From Owenia fusiformis (taxonomy: Eukaryota > Annelida > Polychaeta > Sabellida > Oweniidae), in contig CAIIXF020000007.1 in the NCBI GenBank assembly GCA_903813345.2, positions 13,062,714 through 13,126,713 on the forward strand: a stretch of DNA of 64,000 nt, written 5' to 3'. Positions 312-59,345 of the stretch are shown here, piece after piece. Numbering within the stretch: position 1 is the stretch's first letter; each line of letters begins with the position of its first letter. The notes under the pieces were generated by a model. It saw only the letters and a program-made list of their open reading frames with translations, ran no database searches and was not told the origin of the DNA. Made by a program: the position numbers and the translations under genes.

Positions 312-3300
312 CTGAAACACAAGATGGCATTATGTAAGGATTATATGCCTTTAATTCTAGAGCAACGCTGAAACCTAGTTGAGTAAGATATAGTAGTTAC
401 CTGATCTACGCAGACATAATGAGAAACCTAGTTGAGTAAGATATAGTAGTTACCTGATCTATGCAGACATAATGAGAGAAACCTAGTTGAGTAAGATATA
501 GTAGTTACCTGATCTAGGCAGACATTATGAGAGAAACCTAGTTGAGTAAGACGAGTTATTGCACTTCCTGGACATTCAAGATCCAATACATATCTGAAAT
601 GGACATCAATTTTATTTTCATTTTCAAGGATGAATATTATTGTTCATTGTGAGGGAAACTGAACATAAAATGTAACCAGCATTAAAATATACCAGCTTGT
701 CTGCCTTATAACTAATTTTAAGATTTTCTGTTGGGATCCTTGTAGATATGCTCCAGGGAACTTAAGACAGTCATATTAAAATTAAAAATACTTTACTGAT
801 AAAAATCTAATATTAGTATAATATAACACATAATCAAAATATTATCAAAATACATTGTTCAAATTCTGTACACTCATAATGATTTCAAGTTTCACAGTGA
901 AACAGTATACAATTATTGACCTCTGGAGAGGTCAACCATCAAAATGCAGAGACTGTAAACCTGGAAACTACTGTTGAAAGAGACCAAAGGTTGAGGTCAA
1001 CAGTAGTTTCAAAGTTTACTGTCAAGGTATATGATTTGTCGGTTGACCAAATGTAGAGGTCTACAATTGTTTTGTCAGAAGAAACTAATTATACAAGTTG
1101 TAACCAATTGAAAATTCTACTTACAAATGTGACTCAAGTGGTGTATCTTTTGTTCCAGTAAAATATAACAGATTCTTTTTATCATCAACCCAGATCTGGA
1201 AAATACAATAATAGAAATATCAGTTCTGATTGATGAGTTTACAACACAAAGTTCTACAGTGACAGAACTATATTTTTCTTAAAAACAACTAAGTTCAGCA
1301 GAAAAGGTGTGCAAATAATATTGTTTGCAAGGGAAACACTGACACGCTTTTTGAAATCATTGCTTCCAACATTTTACGCTCTGTTCTTTTGCCACTTAAT
1401 CAGCATTTAAAATGTGTCCATCTTTTTGATTCTATTAATGATGATGTTGAGCTCTGAAATCATGTAAGTTTGTCTCACTTTTCAACTCAAACTATATGTA
1501 GGTAGTAGTTTCTTAATCATCCTAACAAAAGATTTGTCATGGATTTTGAAGAGGCAGTTTTATAATTATTGGATGCATATGTTTTGGCAATTATCAAATG
1601 ACATTTGACTTCGAATGACCTTTACAGAAAATCAGATGACCTCTTTGAAGTCTTAGTACTAGACATGCACCATGTGAAAAGTGAAACAATGAAGTGAAAC
1701 AATGAAGCAACGGTTAAATATACATGTACTTTGGAAATATGTATCATAAAATAAATCCCATACTTCTCTACATTAACCCACCCTATCATCAAAGGTACAC
1801 ATGTTTTGGGAAATTTTACACAGCATAAGGATATAAGCCAACCAACCCTACTATCACACCAAACTAGTTCTCACTACGTTCTCGAAAATGGGCTTAAACT
1901 GTGCACAAACAGATTTAACGTACTAAGAACCCACTAAGAACCATTTGGGATATGTTTACAAACTTCATGAAACTACTCGAAGGAGTAGGTCCTCCAGAAC
2001 TTAGAGCATGCTCAAAATTTTCTGGTGATCGTCACGTTCTGCAATCAGAACGAGTGACAACGTACTTAAGACGACCTGGACGCAATGGGGACACACTACA
2101 AACGGAAGTGTCGTACTTCAATCCTACTAGGGACGTATTACAACGTTGTGTAGTCAGGCGTAAATTGCAGCCATGAGTACTCCAATCTAGTCCTTATGAG
2201 CTTGTTCATTCTGTTCGTAGACAGACCCAACTCGACCGAATAACGTCCTTCCCATTTATAAAGGTTCACAGAAGGTTCTCATAAAGTTCTAAGAACGTCC
2301 GTGTACTTCTCACAGTCATTAATACGTTGATAATTCAGTAACATATTAGGACGTATTGAGAACGAGGTACAACTAATTGTCAACTGGTTTAAACTGATTA
2401 AGGATGTAATTGAACTGCTTGGATACGTGGTGTAGACGAGACGAACGCACAATTTAACCCGATCTAAACTTGATACCAACGTACTGCAGACGGAATAAAG
2501 ACGAGATGAACGTATTAAAAACTGCTTATGAACGAATTAACAAAAATAGCTATCATACCAGAACCAGTTGTCACTGCATTCTTCAAAACGTTGCTGAATC
2601 AGTTTTAAACTGTGTGCGAACTGAATGAACGTACCTACAAGGTTCTACGGTCTGTTTACGAACTTCATGGACTTTCCCGGACAGGGAATGTGATTTAGAA
2701 TTTTGAATAGATTCAAAATTCGATGGCAACCATACCGTTCTGTAATCAGGTCATGATGACCTTCTAGTCTAAGGGACGCGTTATACGACATTGCACACCG
2801 ACGTGGTGCGACCTGAACGAACTGCGAATGAGATGGACGTATGGCCACGTATTGAAGACTGTTTATGAACGAAGTAACTAATTATTTTAGACATATTTCC
2901 CGACCACAGCCAGATTGAGCCCGTTTTACGATGTTTTCGTAGGACTGGCAAGAATGGGTAAGAACTAGTTTGGTGTGATAGGGGGGTAATAATTAATATT
3001 ATTGAGATATATTCCAATCTTTCATCAAAACTAGTAATCTATCTGGTTGAGTGGAAGCAGCCAACATAAAATGCTAAATACCTGTATATTGATCGTTTGA
3101 CCTTGACTGATTCTTGAATTGAGGTGAACTTGTCCAAAAGCCTTGAAACCCCAAATACCTAGATATTGAGCTTGTACCTTGAGATGACCCTGTCCCATAA
3201 ACACTGACTTTGGTCTCGGGTCACCTAATCATGCATGGCTAAGGATCACAGTATTCTTAAAGTGCCTTACAACACCTAATACTTAGATATTGACCTTGAC

Positions 3301-59345: not shown

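Follow-up and report, generated by a model that had tools for sequence, protein, structure and literature searches.

In the annelid Owenia fusiformis, tandem arrays with units spanning an exon–intron junction were found at 17 of 417 sampled splice junctions (4.1%, CI 2.4–6.4%, windows of 300–400 bp; 16 junctions at 200 bp), and at four junctions of the window analysed here, the whole 64,000-nucleotide stretch of DNA that holds the DPP8/9 and METTL25 loci. These arrays are probably ordinary minisatellites that are tolerated through the exon-attached splice site, with a probable bias towards birth at junctions. The preliminary description of the window knew of no named repeat class of this kind; however, tandem repeats over exon–intron boundaries, 5′ or 3′, have already been named “mirages” in lancelets, according to the available portions of two reports (PMC3087553, PMC3902484). 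As far as the literature searched shows, what is new here is their occurrence in another phylum and a first estimate of their rate.

Junction arrays in the DPP8/9 and METTL25 genes

The DPP8/9 gene lies on the minus strand. Its translation, assembled manually exon by exon, aligns with human DPP9 (E 6.9e-131) and contains the Pfam domains PF00930 and PF19520. One expected exon was not located in the window and the 5′ end is unannotated, hence exon numbers are arbitrary, and those used here for both genes follow the preliminary description. Exon 3 (35578..35688, minus strand) is preceded by TTTACAG, includes an 18-residue stretch aligned to DPP9 and ends in ACTACAG at the donor at 35578, where the intron opens with GTAGGT. 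Its donor lies in a 54-bp array of 10.1 copies (35076..35621, minus strand; TRF and sequence), the edge unit of which holds approximately 43 exon bases. The GT is kept in eight of nine distal copies, the last unit reading TT instead. Exon 11 (509..593, minus strand), with a 34-residue translation, has its donor at 509 in an array of 3.3 copies (370..551, minus strand; TRF). The edge unit includes 41 bases of exon, and both distal copies have an intact GT; this array is real, as the preliminary description had it, though its unit is 55 bp rather than about 54 bp.

The remaining DPP8/9 array spans an acceptor. Exon 6 (10667..10767, minus strand) begins at the acceptor at 10767, encodes 33 residues aligned to DPP9 (...FPKVEYIARAGWTRDGK) and is followed by a donor end, GTACGT, read by eye. 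Its array (10698..12505, minus strand; TRF) comprises 16.8 copies of a 108-bp unit, that is 17 units with 17 acceptor starts, each made of 41 intron and 67 exon bases. Exact 60-mers repeat within it at an offset of 540 bp, or five units, which is a sign of recent multi-unit turnover by duplication of a five-unit block. The block duplication, seen in one assembly, is also an indirect sign that the array may vary in length and may be somatically unstable.

On the plus strand, exon 7 of METTL25 (58595..58695) ends in KPLSEVEKDHHSANLKKLYVENEENFKYIEPIT at the donor at 58695, followed by GTAAGT, and the next exon, ALQVVLQPVLETL, comes after an AG. A 23-bp array of 3.5 copies with 100% match (58674..58754, plus strand; TRF) places donors at 58695, 58718 and 58741. 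The locus contains PF13679, Methyltransf_32 (E 6.7e-21); the gene name is that of the preliminary description, and the domain alone was checked.

TRF rows, sequences and junction coordinates agree that these four junctions, three donors and one acceptor, lie in the edge units of intron-bound arrays, as had been proposed. In all four, the edge unit is the copy attached to the exon, and the other copies extend into the intron. Every unit was also said to span the junction, and the splice dinucleotide is indeed present in every unit examined, except for the TT unit that ends the 35578 array. The window has 66 TRF rows in total, and its rate of junction arrays, four in approximately 34 junctions counted by hand, is mildly above the 4.1% of the sample (P 0.048).

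Two long open frames were also observed within the spans of these genes. A frame of 656 codons inside the DPP8/9 span (7205-9172, plus strand) contains three fibrinogen C-terminal stretches (PF00147), and one of 408 codons inside the METTL25 span (50108-51331, minus strand) has no Pfam match at E 0.001.

Detached copies of the acceptor unit

Two arrays of the exon 6 acceptor unit lie apart from the exon, approximately 4 and 22 kb away, with six units each and in the orientation of the gene. The nearer (14623..15278, minus strand; TRF) has a 104-bp variant unit in common with the main array at 99% identity, hence both derive from one pool. The farther (32342..32984, minus strand; TRF) is built of a 106-bp variant, with units 96% alike. 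Approximately 29 units had been attributed to the exon 6 acceptor, and 29 units of 104, 106 or 108 bp do exist, however only 17 adjoin the exon and the remaining 12 are divided between the detached arrays. A stop in the exon frame occurs in six of the 29. When the assembly (498.26 Mb, 525 contigs) was searched with the 108-bp unit, all 29 of 29 matches fell inside the window, in a search that may miss weak or masked copies.

Read by eye, both detached arrays start and stop at a nearly equal unit phase, as if circular multimers had been inserted in the gene, although two cases are no proof. Between the main array and the first detached array there is also a local segmental duplication (12665-13208 and 13839-14382), with identical open frames at an offset of 1174 bp.

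A sample of splice junctions across the genome

Three Pfam families, myosin head, kinesin and DHC_N2, were picked before any sampled sequence was examined. Hits used were 129 of 144 for kinesin among the matches listed (15 of the 18 rows of the C2 array were omitted), 79 of 80 for dynein and 92 of 92 for myosin. Of these 300 hits, 282 fell within the sampled DNA of 140 loci (280,769 bases), which leaves 12 muscle-myosin and six kinesin hits outside it. Flanks were 800, 600 or 450 bases depending on the family, and because they are unequal, intron arrays of kinesin loci are at a disadvantage when wide windows are used. Splice sites were called from weight matrices re-estimated on the data together with protein hits rather than from RNA, and 417 of 564 hit ends passed the splice-site score (200 donors and 217 acceptors). 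TRF repeats made up 7.9% of the sample and TE-like sequence was detected in at least 6.8% of intron bases. One region (C9:37986009-37994334) showed twelve hits to a single myosin-head segment in approximately 8 kb; these may be alternative exons from one muscle myosin gene.

An array was counted if its period was at least 30 bp, a cut chosen after seeing the data, and its unit contained at least 10 exon bases. Three loci with only 3–4 exon bases (L026, L048, L049) were therefore uncounted, and two with junction arrays recognised by eye (L068, L028), where acceptors were uncalled, stand outside both numerator and denominator. The counted arrays lie at six donors and 10–11 acceptors. Clean units of exon and intron were seen, for example, in L064 (59 bp, seven copies), L118 (91 bp, five copies), L121 (57 bp, nine copies, and 76 bp, four copies), L099 (94 bp, four copies) and L139 (67 bp, 2.7 copies), while other loci, L056 and L090 among them, have short arrays with diverged units. 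At L068 (437-3280), the acceptor of a kinesin motor exon is repeated in 17.9 copies of 159 bp with 97% matches, of which by eye only the last continues into the exon.

Junction arrays exceed uniform expectation

The preliminary description held that chance would not place arrays on four junctions of one window, and suggested testing for an excess of arrays at junctions. The matter was judged on the 417-junction sample rather than on the window, and there uniform placement of seeds predicts 5.4–6.9 junction-spanning arrays against the 16–17 observed (P from 2e-5, the simulation floor, to 1.4e-4). A composition weight of 1.19 (1.02–1.35) raises the expectation to 6.1–8.3, and at the weight of 1.35 it is 6.7–8.3 with P at most 7e-4; low-complexity intron is incompletely matched in this comparison, with 75% of intron windows reaching the 10th percentile of junction-window entropy. 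Without four weaker arrays (L046, L056, L058, L090) the count is 13 against 4.9 expected (P 2e-4), and with the period cut lowered to at least 15 bp, and at least 10 exon bases, it is 17–18 against 5.3–7.4, one mis-called donor included.

The position of array edges agrees with this excess. For periods of at least 30 bp, 19 exon-proximal edges fell between −70 and +20 bp (1,251 junction-bins) and 13 between +50 and +410 bp (4,109 junction-bins), a ratio of 4.8 (P 1.3e-5), with a peak 10–40 bp inside exons. This profile predates a correction to the donor of L026, the corrected edge of which is still in the near group. Arrays of period 15–29 show no junction peak in the same profile (four near and 25 far, ratio 0.53).

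The excess is also uneven among families. Kinesin contributed 11 of the 17 arrays (2.6–4.1 expected), myosin two (0.5–0.8 expected) and dynein three to four (2.0–2.4 expected), so that myosin and dynein together gave 5–6 against 2.8–3.1 (P 0.036–0.115). The pooled excess is thus as had been anticipated, though it is owed mainly to kinesin and does not extend to the shorter periods. Seeding at junctions was approximately two to three times the uniform prediction with this caveat. The prevalence of the arrays is taken as established, and a junction bias of their birth is graded only as probable because kinesin supplies 11 of 17 arrays and arrays of period 15–29 lack a peak.

Divergence of distal copies

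In 14 arrays, differences from the proximal copy affected 155 of 3,253 exon-derived positions (4.8%) and 98 of 1,897 intron-derived positions (5.2%); the two parts diverge equally, hence the distal copies show no trace of constraint on coding. Nor are periods biased to multiples of three, which occur in four of the 17 sampled arrays.

The splice dinucleotide is kept in 122 of 126 distal copies across 21 arrays (two of the kept copies, in L122, are indexed one base off). Within the 14 arrays, two of 194 GT/AG cells had changed, compared with approximately 5% elsewhere, while the other core splice positions had changed in 41 of 400 cells, above the rest. Over the 21 arrays, with L122 indexed one base off, five GT/AG cells changed against 18.5 expected (P 0.043), and by column five of 42 varied against 7.9 expected (P 0.17). 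The cell-level data are therefore suggestive of conservation of the distal splice sites whereas the column-level data are not, and since copies within one array are not independent, selection on distal sites is not claimed. In 13 of 18 arrays, counting ties, the score of the proximal site equalled or exceeded the average of the distal sites.

Origin and tolerance of the arrays

We consider it probable that these are ordinary mirage minisatellites, born with some preference for junctions and tolerated once there. A tandem duplication of approximately 20–260 bp over a splice junction would create a second exon end with intron start, or intron end with exon start, and copies could then multiply on the intron side by slippage or unequal exchange. 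If the splicing machinery recognises every genuine exon as a whole (exon definition), it would choose the attached site and the extra copies would leave with the intron, so that the arrays would do no harm. The birth bias might arise, for example, if exon borders, as places of polymerase pausing or nucleosome edges, favour slippage or the restart of replication forks. A more specific version, which we hold tentatively, is that in the germline of this annelid duplications of 30–260 bp are born preferentially astride junctions, leaving arrays at approximately 4% of them, directed by a feature of the border such as a paused polymerase, an R-loop or a nucleosome edge, which lancelets either share or evolved separately.

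The same tolerance could operate without any junction-linked process, if duplications arise evenly along repeat-rich genes and those crossing junctions survive via the proximal site. The 7.9% of tandem repeat in the sample fits such an account, as do the near-equal numbers of intron-only arrays (25) and arrays overlapping an exon-hit edge (23) at periods of at least 30 bp, the lack of a clearly significant excess once kinesin is set aside, and the absence of one at periods of 15–29. We nonetheless regard pure chance as rather unlikely, given the pooled 16–17 arrays against 5.4–6.9 (P approximately 1e-4 or less), or 6.1–8.3 with composition weights, and the peak of array edges 10–40 bp inside exons. 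Selection could instead retain the extra sites as a splicing aid or as alternative ends, which the 122 of 126 intact dinucleotides, the cell-level P of 0.043 and the two changes in 194 cells would favour; it seems improbable when the column-level P is 0.17, copies are not independent, other core splice positions changed more than the rest, exon- and intron-derived parts diverged equally and multiples of three are not favoured among the periods.

Two further origins appear very improbable. The whole-unit arrays of the 108-bp acceptor unit, approximately six units each at some 4 and 22 kb, recall the tandem cores of Helitron-like mobile elements, or gene captures, however units consist of local exon and local intron in the sample arrays inspected as alignments, and Helitron-like dispersal at unrelated loci was not found for the 108-bp unit, the one covered by the genome search, with 29 of 29 matches local. 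The arrays could also be young introns formed from duplicated exon sequence with AGGT (the Rogers model), and mirages were proposed as a route of intron gain in the portion of PMC3087553 available. Here, however, units include intron sequence rather than exon alone, a purely exonic AGGT unit was not found, and the arrays adjoin introns between conserved exons.

Comparison with known systems

The available portions of the lancelet reports (PMC3087553, PMC3902484) describe mirages in Adh3, the globins BflGb6 and BflGb9, troponin C and PGBD5, with units of 10–72 bp (Adh3), 150–160 bp (globins) and 60 and 108 bp (PGBD5). Copies in BflGb6 are 81–100% alike, AG/GT is present in many but not all copies, and RT-PCR suggests normal splicing despite the mirages (PMC3087553). 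The arrays described here similarly have units that span the exon–intron boundary, as judged from protein alignment and splice consensus rather than RNA, affect both donors and acceptors (six and 11 in the sample, three and one in the window) and keep AG/GT in most but not all copies. They differ in occurring in an annelid, lancelets belonging to another phylum, in that their rate was estimated and their position tested across numerous genes where single genes were described before, and in that one gene also holds copies of its unit away from the exon. The annelid assignment agrees with haemoglobin linker genes in the assembly: PF16915, the annelid erythrocruorin linker domain, has three matches above cut-off, and the joined exons of one of these (L141) match the solved structure of a haemoglobin linker chain across residues 4–149 (E 9.5e-19), LDL-receptor proteins matching approximately the first 40 residues only. 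Mitochondrial COX1 gave no match in the assembly, nor did haemerythrin, a protein expected in many annelids. No report of mirages in annelids or molluscs was among the matches listed in a literature search that covered few subscription journals.

Elsewhere, variable internal tandem repeats overlap exon–intron borders in human segmental duplications (PMC2812944), where, in the portion of that report available, they go with paralogs of recent origin and with new introns; the genes affected here have exons that are conserved. The gain of introns through exonic sequence duplicated in tandem, reported under the Rogers model for Drosophila (PMC2891723) and potato (PMC4974935), likewise involves tandem duplication with splice motifs, however the units there, as far as the available portions describe them, are exonic with a proto-splice site, whereas the units here already hold intron.

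Implications

In the literature found, and in the parts of it available, mirages appear as an oddity known from a handful of genes in lancelets. If approximately 4% of splice junctions in an annelid carry them, much of the supply of duplicated splice sites would come from mirages, and new introns and exons could be drawn from them. They would also form a large natural experiment on spliceosome choice between nearly identical sites, as in the kinesin exon with 18 acceptor copies (L068). If the junction-centred excess is true, what mutates DNA at exon borders would become directly testable.
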